Shown here piece after piece: positions 209-61,486 of a stretch of 64,000 nt of DNA (within the stretch, counting starts at the first letter, position 1; each line of letters starts with the position of its first letter). Made by a program: the position numbers and the translations under genes. The notes beneath the pieces were generated by a model, which saw nothing but the letters and a program-made list of their open reading frames with translations, had not been told where the DNA came from and did no database searches. Source of the stretch: Aerococcus sanguinicola (GTDB lineage Bacteria > Bacillota > Bacilli > Lactobacillales > Aerococcaceae); assembly GCF_001543145.1 (NCBI RefSeq), contig NZ_CP014160.1, positions 124,001-188,000 of the forward strand, in the 5' to 3' direction.

Positions 209-507
209 TGGAGCAGTAGTGAAGCGTTGAAGTTGGCCCTTAGCCGTGACCAAGCAAGCATCAGGGTGCGAGTAAGAGCGTTCAGCTTTGGATGCTTGGA
301 GTAAGTCGGGATAAGGGCAAGCAAAGCTTGCACGTTTCCGACTTGCGAAAGCACTCCAAAGCTGCTCTTGCGAACCCGACTAGATGTGAATTAGGGATAG
401 TTGGCGTAAGCCTTACTAGCCCTTTGAAGCTCGCTAGGTGAGAGACCTAGGCTCGAACCGATTCCATGGCTTTTTAAGGGCCAAATTCAAAAGCGAAACG
501 GATGCTA
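209..507 (+). repeat. H2 composite repeat, copy A (with nested H1 hairpin)
   Basis: About 300 bp bounded by long complementary arms: TTGAAGTTGGCCCTTAGCC at 228-246 and GGCTTTTTAAGGGCCAAATT with the following TCAA at 469-490. Inside are two small hairpins (GGCGTAAG/CTTACTAGCC near 403-422 and CTAGGT/ACCTAGG near 434-452) and a nested H1 unit at 264-383. The same backbone occurs at 44378-44742 and 61191-61486. No plausible protein is encoded. It lies between a plus-strand terminator and the 3' end of the minus-strand DUF1846 gene. Confidence 0.8.
264..383 (+). repeat. H1 covarying hairpin unit, nested in H2 copy A
   Basis: Starts AGGGTGCGAG and ends CGAACCCGACTA. The outer arms AAGAGC...AGCTTTGGA pair with TCCAAAGCT.GCTCTT. 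The inner arms GTAAGTCGG...GCAAGC pair with GCTTGC...CCGACTTGC. A few unpaired bases between the two outer arm segments sit only on the 5' side, as in the other units. Confidence 0.8.
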
Positions 508-21771: not shown

Positions 21772-21990
21772 ATGATTTATAAAGTTTTTTACCAAGAAAC
21801 AAAAACTGAAGTGCCAACGCGCGAACATACGCAGTCACTTTACATCGATGCTGAATCGGTCACTGAAGTCCGCCGTATCCTCGCTGAAAAAACCCCTTAC
21901 CATGTTGAGCACATTCAATTATTAGATGACGCTCACTTAGCCTATGAGCAAAAGAGTGACCGTTTCGAATTGACGGAGTTTGCTGATTAA
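21772..21990 (+). CDS. rpoY: RNA polymerase epsilon subunit RpoY
   Basis: A 72-residue protein of the DUF1447 family, the small auxiliary epsilon subunit of Firmicutes RNA polymerase. [17 protein letters not shown] at the N terminus and SLYIDAES are characteristic. It overlaps rnjA by one base (TAATG), as in the conserved rpoY-rnjA pair of Bacillus. GAAGGAAG precedes the ATG. Confidence 0.92.
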
Positions 21991-23663
21991 TGAAATTAAA
22001 AATCAAAAACCATGAAACTGCTGTTTTCGCCATTGGGGGTTTAGGCGAAATCGGTAAAAATATGTACTGTATCCAATTCCAAGATGAAATCATCGTCCTC
22101 GATGCGGGCGTTATGTTCCCAGAAGATGACCTGCTCGGAATTGACTATGTAATTTCAGATTATTCCTATCTGATTGAAAATAAAGACAAGATCAAGGGCG
22201 TCTTCATCACCCATGGCCACGAAGACCATATTGGTGGGGTACCCTTCTTGCTCAAGCAAGTCAATGTGCCAATCTATGCCGGGGCCCTTTCACTGGCTCT
22301 GATCCGGGGTAAATTGGAAGAGCACCACTTGCTCCGTGACGCTGAGCTCCATGAAGTGGATGAAGATAGCGTCATCAAGTTCCGCAAGACCCAAGTCAGC
22401 TTTGCCCGAGTGACCCACTCTATTCCGGATGCCATGGCTATCTGTGTCAAGACACCTTCCGGTAATATTGTCTTCACAGGGGACTACAAGTTTGACTTTA
22501 CCCCGACCGGCAAGAAGGCTGACCTGCACAAGCTAGCCCGCCTAGGTGACGAAGGGGTCCTTTGCTTACTCGGTGATTCCACCAACTCCGAAATTAGTGG
22601 CTTCACCAAGTCAGAACGGGTCGTAAGCGGCGCCTTGAAAGATATTATCGATAAAATCGAAGGCCGGATTATTTTTGCCAGCTTTGCTTCAAATATCTCC
22701 CGGCTTTCGGAAGCCATCGACATTGCCATTGCCAACAACCGTAAAGTAGCCGTCTTCGGCCGGTCCATGGAAAATGCCGTGCGCAATGCTCAAGAGATTG
22801 GCTACTTCGACCTACCAAAAGGTGTCTTAATCGACGGGAAGGACATTAACAAATATCCAAGTAATGAAGTCATGATCATGTGTACCGGATCCCAGGGTGA
22901 ACCCATGGCAGCCTTGAGCCGGATTGCGAACGGCACCCACCGGCAAATCTCCATCCAAGATGGGGATACCGTTATCTTCTCCTCCTCCCCTATTCCAGGG
23001 AACACAACTAGTGTTAACCGCGTAATTAACAAATTGCTGGAAGCAGGAGCAGAAGTGGTCCACGGTAAGATTAACAATGTCCACACCTCCGGCCACGGCT
23101 CACAAGAAGAACAAAAGCTCATGCTGAGCCTCTTGAAGCCTAAGTACTTCATGCCGGTCCACGGGGAATACCGCATGCTCTCCATCCAAGCTGATACAGC
23201 AGTCAGCCTGGGTATCCCACGGGAGAATACCTTCATCATGGACAACGGTGATGTCCTCGCCCTGACTGAAAATTCAGCGCGCCGGGCGGGCCATATCCCT
23301 GCCAATGATGTCTATGTCGACGGCAAGGGCATCGGCGATATCGGCAATATTGTCCTCAGAGACCGCCATAAGTTGTCAGAAGATGGTCTAGTTCTAGTGG
23401 TTGTCAGCATCGACTTCGAGACCAACCAATTACTAGCTGGCCCAGCCATCGTCTCTCGCGGCTTCATCTACATGCGTGAATCCGAAGACCTGATCAGTGA
23501 CGCCCAACGTGTCATCCAGACAGCCGTCATCGGTCACTTAAATTCAGGCAACAAAGTCAACGAAAAAATCCTACGTGACAGCATCCAAAACTCACTCCAA
23601 CCCTTCCTATACAAACGGACCAAACGCAACCCGCTCATCATGTCCGTCGTCATGTCAGTTTAA
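21990..23663 (+). CDS. rnjA: Ribonuclease J1
   Basis: A 557-residue metallo-beta-lactamase/beta-CASP nuclease, the length of RNase J1. It has 5'-3' exonuclease and endonuclease activity in mRNA decay and rRNA maturation. [10 protein letters not shown] (near 73-82) is the zinc motif, GDSTNSE and SGHGSQEEQ (near 370) belong to the beta-CASP part, and [11 protein letters not shown] (near 387) carries the motif C histidine. Its mRNA continues directly into an H1 hairpin array, which begins four bases after the stop codon. Confidence 0.96.
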
Positions 23664-23666
23664 AAA

Positions 23667-23782
23667 AGGGTGAGAGAGGATGCGGGAGAAAGGGACCTCT
23701 GGAGTAAAATCTCAGAGAAGGCTGAAGGCCTTCGACGGGATTTTGCGAAGAGGAGCCCTTTCTGCATCCTCGAACCCGACTA
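23667..23782 (+). repeat. H1 hairpin unit 1 of the rnjA 3' array
   Basis: Bounded by AGGGTGAGAG and CGAACCCGACTA. Arms: GAGGATGC with GCATCCTC, AGAAAGGG with CCCTTTCT, CTCT with AGAG, then inner GAAGGC/GCCTTC. The core keeps TGGAGTAAAA and TTTTGCGAAG. Three extra bases (GGG) sit between the first two 5' arm segments only. Confidence 0.8.
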
Positions 23783-23783
23783 A

Positions 23784-23901
23784 AGGGTGTAAGACTTGGC
23801 GCTTAGACTCGGATGATTGGAGCAATTAAGGATAAGAGCGAAACATTCGCTCGTTTCTTAATTGTGAAATCACTCCGAGTCTGCCAAGTCGAACCCGACT
23901 A
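23784..23901 (+). repeat. H1 hairpin unit 2 of the rnjA 3' array
   Basis: Bounded by AGGGTGTAAG and CGAACCCGACTA, one base after unit 1. Arms: GACTTGGC with GCCAAGTC, AGACTCGGA with TCCGAGTCT; core TTGGAGCAATTAAG with CTTAATTGTGAAAT; terminal stem GAGCGAAACATTCGCTC. Confidence 0.8.
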
Positions 23902-23902
23902 C

Positions 23903-23924
23903 AGGGTGTGAGACTTGGCGCTTA
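23903..23924 (+). repeat. Truncated H1 unit
   Basis: AGGGTGTGAGACTTGGCG plus CTTA repeats the 5' end of unit 2 and then stops. It shows that a third tandem copy was present and was cut short. Confidence 0.65.
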
Positions 23925-23941
23925 ATCTTATACATAAGGCA

Positions 23942-23984
23942 TAAAAAAGGAGTAAGTCTTCAGCTGAAGGCTTACTCCTTTTCT
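23942..23984. terminator. Bidirectional terminator between rnjA array and liaR
   Basis: AAAAGGAGTAAG pairs with CTTACTCCTTTT around TCTTCAGCTGAAGG. On the minus strand it overlaps the last codons of liaR and is followed by six T. Confidence 0.8.
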
Positions 23985-26505: not shown

Positions 26506-26572
26506 TAGTCAGGCTCGCAGTTGCAGACTTGAAGTGACTTCAGGCAAGTCTGAGCGCCAAGTCTCACACCCT
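26506..26572 (-). repeat. Shortened H1 unit of the greA 3' array
   Basis: On the minus strand it starts AGGGTGTGAGACTTGGCG and ends GCCTGACTA after only 67 bp. The inner part is deleted, but CAGACTTG and CAAGTCTG still form a stem around the conserved TGAAGTCAC segment. Confidence 0.65.
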
Positions 26573-26575
26573 TTT

Positions 26576-26692
26576 TAGTCGGGTTCGGGTGCACAGAAGT
26601 GGCTCCTCTTCACAAAAGCCTATCGAAGGCTTTCAGCCTTCTTTAGTCTTTTGCTCCAGAGGTCCACTTCTGATCGTGCACCCTCACACCCT
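26576..26692 (-). repeat. H1 hairpin unit of the greA 3' array
   Basis: Minus strand: AGGGTGTGAG to CGAACCCGACTA. Arms GGTGCAC with GTGCACC, AGAAGTGG with CCACTTCT, CTCT with AGAG; inner GAAGGCT with AGCCTTC. The core keeps TGGAGCAAAAG and CTTTTGTGAAG. GATC forms the one-sided bulge on the 5' arm. Confidence 0.8.
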
Positions 26693-26695
26693 GTG

Positions 26696-26812
26696 TAGTC
26701 GGGTTCGTCTTGGCAGCTTTCGTATCACTTCACAAGTCCCCGCCGCAGTCTTCCAGACTGCTCTGGTGACTTGCTCCAGTGAACGAAAGCTAACCGCCAA
26801 GTCTCACACCCT
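26696..26812 (-). repeat. H1 hairpin unit adjoining the greA stop codon
   Basis: Minus strand: AGGGTGTGAG to CGAACCCGACTA, starting three bases after the greA stop codon. Arms ACTTGGC with GCCAAG, AGCTTTCGT with ACGAAAGCT, TCACT with AGTGA; core TGGAGCAAGTC with GACTTGTGAAG; terminal GCAGTCT/AGACTGC. Very close to the unit at 61245-61361 except in the outermost arm, where both sides change together. Confidence 0.8.
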
Positions 26813-26815
26813 TTT

Positions 26816-27298
26816 TTACTCAGCTTTTTCTACTGCGGTGATTTTGAGGGCGAGTTCGCCGCCTGGGGTTTCGAAGCTGACTTGGTCGCCGACTTTTTTG
26901 CCGATGAGGGCTTGGGCGATTGGAGATTCGTTGGAGATTTTGCCTGAGAGTGGGTCTGCTTCGGCCTTACCTACGATGGTATAGGCTTCTTCGTCGCCGT
27001 CTGGCAATTCCACGAAAGTTACCTTACGACCGATTGAAACTTCATCGCTGTCTAATTCATCTGGGTTAATGATTTCAGCATAGCGGATCATTTTTTCCAA
27101 TTTGGCGATTTGCCCTTCCACGAAGGCTTGTTCATCTTTGGCTGCCTCATATTCAGAATTTTCTGAGAGGTCCCCATATGAGCGCGCGATCTTGATCCGG
27201 TTTACGACTTCTGGACGTCTATTTACTTTTAAATCTTCTAATTCAGCTTCAAGGCGCTGTTTGCCTTCGATTGTCATTGGATAGCTTTCTTCTACCAT
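26816..27298 (-). CDS. greA: Transcription elongation factor GreA
   Basis: A 160-residue GreA of standard length. Its coiled-coil enters the RNA polymerase secondary channel and stimulates cleavage of backtracked [21 protein letters not shown] begins the coiled-coil and [19 protein letters not shown] (near 40-58) contains the acidic tip (Asp, Glu). [17 protein letters not shown] near the C terminus is typical. It follows udk with an 83-base gap that holds a hairpin; its 3' end runs directly into the H1 array. Confidence 0.96.
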
Positions 27299-43279: not shown

Positions 43280-43475
43280 AGAGTTCTGAAGTGTACGTGT
43301 TATTCCTTTAATGTGTTGACCGAACAAATTTTACTATCTAGGGATTCGTGAACTCCAGTGGAGGACACGCCCCATCACGGGGAAGTCTGAAGCTGGATAG
43401 CGAAACCCACCTGCACTTAAGAGAGCGGGTTCAATACAGATAGAGCACACGGCACCTGTCGGAGCTCTTTTTTTG
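43280..43475 (+). ncRNA. ssrS: 6S RNA-like gene
   Basis: About 195 bases downstream of rarA with no open frame. The ends pair: AAGAGTTCT at the 5' side with GGAGCTCTT at the 3' side, extended inward by GTGT..GTGT with ACAC..GCAC pairings. This gives a long rod interrupted by a central unpaired region, as in 6S RNA, which binds sigma-A RNA polymerase. A run of seven T ends the gene. A promoter-like TTGCAT lies about 35 bases upstream. Position beside rarA supports the call; I judged the fold by eye. Confidence 0.7.
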
Positions 43476-44377: not shown

Positions 44378-44742
44378 TTTGAGCAAGAGTGAAGCTTTGA
44401 ATTTGATCGTTAGCCATGAACGAGCAAGCGATGTGAATTAGGGACAGTTGGCGCAAGCTTTACTAGCCAAAACCTGCTCCAAAAGTCAGCTCTGACTCCA
44501 CTTCACAAAGGCTGGCAGAGCCTCTAACAAGGCTCTGCCAGCCTTTGCTCCAGTGATTCAGAGCTCCCGACTTTTGTCACACTCTAACTTTGAAGCTCGC
44601 TAGGCGAGAGACCTTGGCCCGAACCGGTGCTATGCTTTAGCCGTTGGAGCTTTAGCGACTTACGGATAAAGTACAAGACGGCTTTAGCCGTGTTGATCCG
44701 CTAAACATTTAACGATCAAATTCAAAAGCGGAACGGATGCTC
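44378..44742 (+). repeat. H2 composite repeat, copy C (H1 absent at usual site, H1-like hairpin elsewhere)
   Basis: The backbone matches the copies at 209-507 and 61191-61486. The arms TTTGAATTTGATCGTTAG (44396-44413) and AACGATCAAATTCAAA (44711-44726) differ from the GGCCCTTA/TAAGGGCC arms of the others, yet remain complementary. At 44429/44430 the sequence runs straight from GAGCAAGC into GATGTGAATTA, where the other copies hold an H1 unit. A different hairpin is inserted at 44469-44588, and an extra segment with GACGGCTTTAGCCGT lies near the 3' end. Confidence 0.8.
44469..44588 (-). repeat. H1-like hairpin inserted within H2 copy C
   Basis: Read on the minus strand it has the H1 plan: GTGTGACAAAAGTCG, AGCTCTGA, CACTGGAGCAAAGG, a terminal GGCAGAGCC/GGCTCTGCC stem, CCTTTGTGAAGTGG, TCAGAGCT, GACTTTTGGAGC. 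It lacks the usual CGAACCCGACTA end. It splits the TTACTAGCC/CTTTGAAGCTC sequence that is continuous in copies A and D. Confidence 0.7.
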
Positions 44743-48161: not shown

Positions 48162-48268
48162 GTAACGCACCTCCTTAAATAACTTAGACTCGCCATGGTA
48201 AGCGGCCTTGGCACTTGAAAGCTTACAATGAGCGGTTGCAGATCTGGTGGTCACAGAAATACAACGCT
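48162..48268 (-). promoter_or_regulatory. Ribosomal protein L21 leader
   Basis: The roughly 105-base untranslated leader between the promoter and rplU contains several complementary stretches (for example GGTAAGC with the GCTTACC near 48194-48205). Firmicutes rplU operons usually carry an L21-leader RNA at this position that is thought to bind L21. The location is clear; the fold was not computed. Confidence 0.55.
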
Positions 48269-61134: not shown

Positions 61135-61190
61135 GATTCTCTAACTTTTTTAGATTCACCTTAAGCTAATCAAAAATGGTACAAGTTATT

Positions 61191-61486
61191 TTTGAGCAGG
61201 AGTGGAGCGTTGAAGTTGCCCTTAGCCATGAACAAGCAAGTTTCAGGGTGAGAGGGCTGACGGTTAGCTTTCGTTCACTGGAGCAAGTCAACAGAGCAGT
61301 CTAAAAGACTGCGGCGAAGACTTGTGAAGTGACACGAAAGCTGTCAGACCGAACCCGACTAGATGTGAATTAGGGATAGTTGGCATTAGCCTTACTAGCC
61401 CTTTGAAGCTCGCTAGGTGAGGGACCTTGGCCCGAACCGGTGCCATGGCTCTTTAAGGGCCAAATTCAACAGTGAAACGGATGCTC
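61191..61486 (+). repeat. H2 composite repeat, copy D (with nested H1 hairpin)
   Basis: Arms GTTGAAGTTGCCCTTAGCC (61209-61227) and GGCTCTTTAAGGGCCAAATT plus CAAC (61447-61470). The backbone is nearly identical to 209-507, including the GATGTGAATTAGGGATAGTT segment after the nested hairpin. It occupies the convergent gap between EIIC and the ABC ATPase gene. Confidence 0.8.
61245..61361 (+). repeat. H1 covarying hairpin unit, nested in H2 copy D
   Basis: AGGGTGAGAG to CGAACCCGACTA. Outer arm GCTGAC pairs with GTCAG, AGCTTTCGT with ACGAAAGCT, CACT with AGTG; core TGGAGCAAGTC and GACTTGTGAAG; terminal GCAGTCT/AGACTGC. Only the outermost arm pair distinguishes it clearly from 26696-26812. Confidence 0.8.

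Follow-up and report, generated by a model that had tools for sequence, protein, structure and literature searches.

H1, a repeat of about 117 nt that folds into one long imperfect hairpin, forms a dispersed high-copy family with fast turnover in the genome of its Aerococcus host, and its fold is under constraint or selection. The observations make it rather probable that H1 is a non-autonomous mobile hairpin, which was repeatedly inserted at the 3' ends of genes and whose fold is kept through recognition by its mover. In a family that is abundant, dispersed, quickly turned over, and placed at stop codons, the compensatory changes in the stems most likely reflect mobilisation and not a function at each single site. 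The surprising part is the stop-codon preference without a known enzyme.

The H1 family in the host genome

The window, i.e., the whole stretch of DNA that was analysed, comprises 64 kb (bases 124001–188000 of the 2,033,849-bp host genome, genus Aerococcus). Six H1 copies had been named in a preliminary description of this DNA, and a check of the sequence found all of them with the frame and fold given there. Five lie exactly where they had been placed, whereas the first covers 263–382 instead of 264–383, a difference of one base (Table 1). Several window copies are embedded in H2, a composite repeat of approximately 300 bp that contains H1-type hairpins as branches in both orientations. About ten H2-embedded H1 copies were counted by eye in the host genome, and copies in another genome (G010; loci L117, L128, and L139) are similarly composite in look.

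Table 1. Coordinates of H1 copies and associated features in the window
Feature	Position	Strand	Remarks
H1 copy inside the larger composite repeat H2	263–382	+	downstream flank GATGTGAATTA common to other H2-embedded copies
RNase J ORF (557 aa)	21990–23663	+	stop codon just before H1 array
H1 copy, first of RNase J array	23667–23782	+	+3 nt from TAA of the RNase J ORF
H1 copy, second of RNase J array	23784–23901	+	spacer 1 nt (A)
3'-truncated H1, distal in RNase J array	23903–23925	+	5' part retained; end approximate
Terminator-like hairpin with T-tract, 3' of RNase J array	23948–23982	+	limits by eye
Internally deleted H1 (67 nt), distal end of greA array	26506–26572	−	
H1 copy, second of greA array	26576–26692	−	spacer CAC; top-scoring copy for model R1
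H1 copy, first of greA array	26696–26812	−	+3 nt from greA TAA
greA ORF (160 aa)	26816–27298	−	stop codon just before minus-strand H1 array
Diverged H1 copy inside H2 composite	44469–44585	−	
H1 copy inside H2 composite	61245–61361	+	
H2	200–507, 44380–44742, 61190–61486 (and 1–64)		limits approximate

The H1 ends are nearly fixed in the host genome, where almost every aligned copy has AGGGTGnGAG at the 5' end and CGAACCCGACTA at the 3' end. A count of this 3' word gave 132 genomic occurrences, compared with one for a reversed control pattern. A covariance-model search, as proposed in the preliminary description for related genomes, yielded copies in the host genome and in its relatives. The model R1, which was built from 27 H1 copies, gave at least 150 matches in the host genome. 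When it was rerun over the window and 84 genome stretches, together holding 130 of the 132 CGAACCCGACTA words, 223 matches were obtained, corresponding to 216 distinct full-length H1 copies in 105 arrays, with an array defined as same-strand neighbours separated by gaps of at most 15 nt. Forty-one arrays consist of a single copy, 33 are double, 19 triple, nine contain four copies, two contain five, and one contains six. Neighbouring copies not more than 15 nt apart are on the same strand in 111 of 112 cases (one pair is opposite). The copies of an array are arranged head to tail. All 111 spacers are 1–5 nt long (48 of 3 nt, 32 of 4 nt, 20 of 1 nt, 10 of 2 nt, and one of 5 nt).

Two further repeats were observed. 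Five tandem 15-bp units, each consisting of the H1 3' word CGAACCCGACTA extended by 3 nt, are located at G000:C1:996400-996471 (L189). A second, degenerate hairpin repeat of about 40 bp around TGTGGGTTG / CAACCCACA lies behind truncated H1 copies (e.g., L199, L196, and L165); TGTGGGTTG is present in 13 of 105 downstream flanks of H1 arrays and in one of 105 upstream flanks. This repeat is perhaps an older layer.

Fold and covariation

Going inward, the H1 hairpin comprises a GGGT/ACCC clamp, a GnGA/GA loop, an 8-bp stem, and the 5'-side bulge, which is followed by a second 8-bp stem, a 5-bp stem, a GGA/GA loop, a 7-bp stem, and the apical hairpin. The one-sided bulge of 3–4 nt had been noticed before, and nearly all copies do have 3 or 4 nt at this position (the script permitted 3 to 5). 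Comparison with shuffled sequences, made for two of the six window copies, gave folding z values of −7.6 and −8.8. The stems are highly variable, with 36 types for each of the two 8-bp stems among 216 copies, and the loops hardly vary: GGA is found in 207 of 216 copies and its partner GA in 212, and the outer loop has GnGA in 209 and the partner GA in 208 copies. Species whose copies end in AGGATG/CTCAACT have a weaker outer clamp.

The maintenance of the fold, claimed in the preliminary description from compensatory changes in a few copies, was corroborated by three lines of evidence. Double changes that keep the pairing were found at 25 of 34 pairs in alignment A1 (27 copies). In alignment A3 (148 distinct H1 copies from other genomes, aligned by R1), paired cells amounted to 91.6%, compared with 61.5% after shuffling and 34–50% with slid partners. 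Covariation was assessed against a tree-aware null, in which substitutions were redistributed among the alignment columns along a tree from FastTree in 30 simulations, for A3 and for A2, which contains the 149 best-scoring distinct host copies. All significantly covarying pairs belong to the proposed fold (15 of 15 in A2 and 25 of 25 in A3, none outside), where the tree of the null was built from the very alignment under test and the A3 counts lean towards the fold because A3 was fitted to R1. A statistical test of covariation, such as had been suggested earlier, came out in favour of the fold.

G-U pairs are scarce. The consensus sequences of 13 subfamilies contain 527 Watson–Crick and 15 G-U pairs in the fold, and the G-U share of standard pairs is 3–4%, which suits a hairpin formed by DNA. 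In individual copies, 4989 Watson–Crick pairs compare with 108 G.T, 60 A.C, and 243 other mismatches; the surplus of G.T relative to A.C would allow for a certain constraint at the RNA level.

No Rfam family matches H1 in the window, where only ordinary RNAs located elsewhere, 6S RNA and the ribosomal protein L21 leader (43280–43469 and 48176–48247), exceeded the gathering threshold. At 12 other H1 loci, Rfam detected a T-box only and no match to H1. A tRNA was also considered and discarded, as the window contains none.

Position of the arrays at stop codons

The arrays start close to the ends of reading frames. Counted from the stop codon of an upstream ORF in sense orientation, 59 of 105 arrays begin at −9 to +7 nt; the stop used was the nearest one among all sense ORFs of 70 or more codons, whether or not these are annotated genes. 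Such positions are rare in the controls: the other end of the array on the opposite strand (1 of 105 at −9 to +7, none at 0 to +7), random positions (37 of 2000 and 18 of 2000, respectively), and array starts shifted by 30–150 nt (0–9 of 105). Within −9 to +60, 59 of 62 arrays fall into −9 to +7, for which uniform placement gives a P of about 9e-33. Thirty-seven of the stop-adjacent arrays begin at 0 to +7; for the remaining 22, the stop codon is formed partly or wholly by the first bases of H1 (TA|A, T|AG, or the TGA of the hairpin itself).

A terminator-like hairpin with a T-tract follows within 500 nt downstream of 39 of the 59 stop-adjacent arrays, compared with none of 59 upstream coding controls. 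H1 as an intrinsic terminator itself was rejected, since TTTT follows none of the copies of these 59 arrays. Six further arrays, identified by eye, are located directly 3' of a terminator T-tract. Counting against insertion at gene ends as a general rule, 46 of the 105 arrays have no detected ORF stop beside them, a number to which arrays wrongly appearing off-stop contribute because some first copies were missed by R1.

Signs of movement and turnover

The sequence directly upstream of an array is echoed in the spacers. The last 1, 2, and 3 nt of the upstream flank are identical with those of the spacer in 72 of 111, 31 of 91, and 15 of 81 cases, respectively (46, 13, and 4 in shuffled data; none of 2000 shuffles as high). 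The whole first spacer equals the flank above the shuffled level for spacers of 1 nt (11 of 13) and 4 nt (4 of 19), but not for those of 2 nt (0 of 7) and 3 nt (2 of 25), which counts against the mobile hairpin. The spacer length also varies, unlike in a classical target duplication.

The host was compared with Aerococcus sp. HMSC062A02 at the 26 loci where each genome has full copies; where runs of N in the draft sequence interrupt a locus, the locus was kept and only the copies containing N were dropped. These loci had been picked for tandem copies in HMSC062A02 and are thus not a random sample. Although the flanks are 82–99% identical, 12 of the 26 loci have no common copy (identity of at least 0.85); the first copy is common at one locus and the last at five, and counts of shared copies may include independent insertions, since the copies of one subfamily are alike across loci. 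Unmatched copies numbered 22 on the 5' side and 18 on the 3' side, with the matching blurred by the resemblance of subfamilies across loci. Against mobility, no clean empty site was seen; two loci of HMSC062A02 have no full H1 copy, one of them with a remnant.

Truncated H1 sequences lie downstream of 27 arrays (26 of them retain the 5' part) and upstream of two. The R1 scores fall along the arrays, albeit not significantly (P 0.12). Growth of the arrays at the stop-codon end is suggested; together with erosion at the far end, it fits the spacer echo, the turnover seen against HMSC062A02, and the placement of the truncated copies.

The genes carrying arrays are mostly not the same in different genomes. 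Among 64 ORFs that precede copies in other genomes, a set in which ORF and copy may be up to 400 nt apart, two closely match one of the 59 stop-adjacent ORFs of the host; in addition, weak matches of 25–29% identity were found. Pointing in the other direction, the gene 3' end at 346414, which belongs to one of the two close matches, has H1 copies in three other species, too.

A plasmid search gave no match for a window H1 copy or the copy of L322, and the unit of L235 matched solely a 592-kb Aerococcus tenax record. The unit of L241 had no match in a phage search, and viral contigs contained four matches to one H1 pattern and none to another.

H1 in other genomes

Of 15 genomes of the genus, R1 detected copies in 11; among the four negative ones, two have a completeness of only 85%. 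With E values up to 1e-6 and stricter filters, copies were found in 43 of 295 genomes and 18 of 75 genera of the order. A model built from the H1 copies of other genomes in the order (R2) found matches in 11 of 398 genomes of the class; eight of these genomes lie outside the order and are putative carriers with weak scores. In family f8, a single genome gave 121 matches. The stem sequences differ widely across species, and the G.A loops recur. The ends are alike in Aerococcus (5' AGGGTG or AGGATG) and more varied in other genera.

The position at stop codons recurs as well. For loci taken mostly from the top of the score lists, arrays start −9 to +10 nt from a stop codon in 13 of 21 cases in G012, 13 of 22 in G002, and 10 of 22 in other genera. 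In G217, this applies to 6 of 24 arrays, and 13 of 24 start within +40.

The approximately 30 copies of G217 are scattered and score almost alike (86.7–96 bits). Here and in G152, G120, and G066, the unit consists of H1, a linker, and a GC-rich hairpin with a total length of approximately 165–170 bp, unlike the H1 copies of Aerococcus, which are single hairpins. The host sequences flanking these units tend to be complementary to each other, with a score of 6.03 compared with 5.06 ± 0.20 for swapped partners (none of 1000 as high). The sample comprised 30 units of genera other than Aerococcus (23 of the 24 of G217, with L242 left out, four of G152, one of the two of G066, and two of G120). In these four genomes, a host hairpin is apparently split around the unit.

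Search for the mover

No cognate enzyme of H1 was found among the Y1 transposase, IS110-family transposase, and reverse transcriptase genes. Of 16 copy-bearing genomes searched, 11, including that of the host, lack matches to the Y1 transposase (PF01797), and those to the IS110-family transposase (PF01548) are absent in the host genome and in 12 of the 16. Reverse transcriptase genes (PF00078) are present in 5 of 15 genomes of the genus and absent from G002, G009, and G011–G014, though each of these contains 30–83 H1 copies. All three were rejected as the mover, since the genes do not track the copies.

The reverse transcriptase of the host is a retron type I-C protein of 584 aa, in which the RT is fused to a Toprim domain (L231, G000:C1:1140138-1143752). 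In G013, matches to the Y1 transposase number eighteen and mostly score similarly, which indicates a very uneven distribution of IS200-type elements across the genus.

Proposed mode of insertion

If H1 is a mobile hairpin, new copies would insert in sense orientation at the end of an ORF or at a terminator hairpin, and the insertion would duplicate a few bases. Older copies would be pushed downstream by new ones and erode there. The enzyme involved may recognise the folded single strand, presumably the sense strand, so that pairing would be selected and the sequence of the stems left free. The features that it reads might be the terminal sequences, the bulge on the 5' side, and the pair of tandem G.A loops, and not the sequence of the stems. 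That the target is marked at the level of RNA or the ribosome (translation termination or RNA 3' ends), with no DNA motif and no classical transposase, is a distinctly improbable extension of this scheme.

Should the scheme hold, an element of many genera in one order would pick the exact 3' boundary of genes without a recognised transposase. This targeting rule would be unusual and would make the recognition of a reading-frame end by a DNA element testable. Dozens of genes would carry strong, fast-changing hairpins right behind their stop codons, with relevance for annotation, 3'-UTR biology, and strain typing.

Alternative explanations and comparison with known systems

There is a nearly even chance that H1 belongs to the EFAR/Efa-1 miniature insertion elements or to a group that is sister to them, the Aerococcus arrays being a stop-codon-seeking branch; this is compatible with a mobile hairpin and would supply the family name. 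EFAR, the subject of work by Venditti and colleagues in 2007, is reportedly about 170 bp long with two stem-loops and is said to insert into stem-loops, e.g., terminators, with part of the target stem retained at the element ends. Efa-1 is a 163-bp, intergenic double-hairpin family of Enterococcus faecalis with 65 copies, according to PMC2267715. Both are probably the same family. They share with H1 the palindromic structure, the intergenic location, and the high copy number, and the double-hairpin units of G217 and G152 match them in length (approximately 165–170 bp); these units and the apparently split host hairpin in G217, G152, G120, and G066 argue for membership. The single 117-nt hairpins of Aerococcus in head-to-tail arrays at stop codons differ from this. 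At E values up to 5, R2 gave no match in the 139.5 kb of E. faecalis DNA searched; this length is too short for a decision, as 65 copies per genome of approximately 3 Mb predict only about three in it. Within this DNA, the only direct repeat of at least 60 nt within one stretch resembles coding sequence. The record in question (NZ_CP142821.1; L333–L335) is labelled as an E. faecalis plasmid, but its genes look chromosomal (groEL, atp operon, prfA), and it is probably a mislabelled chromosomal contig. The earlier statement that no described family has the signature of H1 holds with respect to Rfam and has to be qualified by the resemblance to EFAR and Efa-1.

A functional 3'-UTR RNA appears unlikely. 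In this case, the transcribed hairpin would protect or process the mRNA or act on the terminating ribosome, and its usefulness would spread copies by recombination. The sense orientation, the site between stop codon and terminator, the retention of the tandem G.A loops on the sense strand, and the higher frequency of G.T compared with A.C are in accordance with such a role. It fits poorly with arrays being found at few genes in more than one species, with the 12 loci lacking a common copy between close genomes, with the low G-U share, and with the four congeneric genomes in which no copies were detected (two of them incomplete, see above).

An identity of H1 copies with attC-like sites, which a tyrosine recombinase would move by acting on their folded single strand, is very improbable. 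Their position behind an ORF corresponds to the habit of attC sites, but no attC-type R box was noticed when the ends AGGGTGnGAG and CGAACCCGACTA were compared by eye with the R'/R'' motif. Furthermore, the copies are scattered over the chromosome behind ordinary genes such as those for RNase J and GreA, and no cassettes were seen. The likeness to integron attC sites consists in the conserved fold with variable sequence, the one-sided extrahelical bases, and a length within 57–142 nt, as given in PMC2727003.

Palindromes of the REP type mobilised by a Y1 (RAYT/IS200) transposase are hardly credible as an explanation: the high copy number with hundreds of copies, the clusters, the extragenic location, and palindromes kept by complementary changes recall REP/BIME sequences, but those begin with a GT(A/G)G head and flank a rayt gene (PMC2817692) and REPs measure 20–40 bp (PMC3733652), whereas H1 has 117 nt and no GTAG-type head at its 5' end, and the host genome, like most of the copy-bearing genomes searched, has no match to a Y1 gene.

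A literature search, which left most subscription journals outside, found no paper on intergenic hairpin repeats of Aerococcus. BOX, RUP, and SPRITE of Streptococcus pneumoniae are small, folded interspersed repeats regarded by the authors of PMC3049150 as parasitic mobile elements; BOX resembles H1 in its tandem modules and differs in the boxA-boxB-boxC order and the terminal inverted repeats described there. The bcr1 repeat belongs to another bacterial group, the Bacillus cereus group, and is likewise a structured repeat described as having mobile-element character (approximately 150–167 bp). The closest known kind appears to be EFAR of E. faecalis, judged by its description and not by its sequence.
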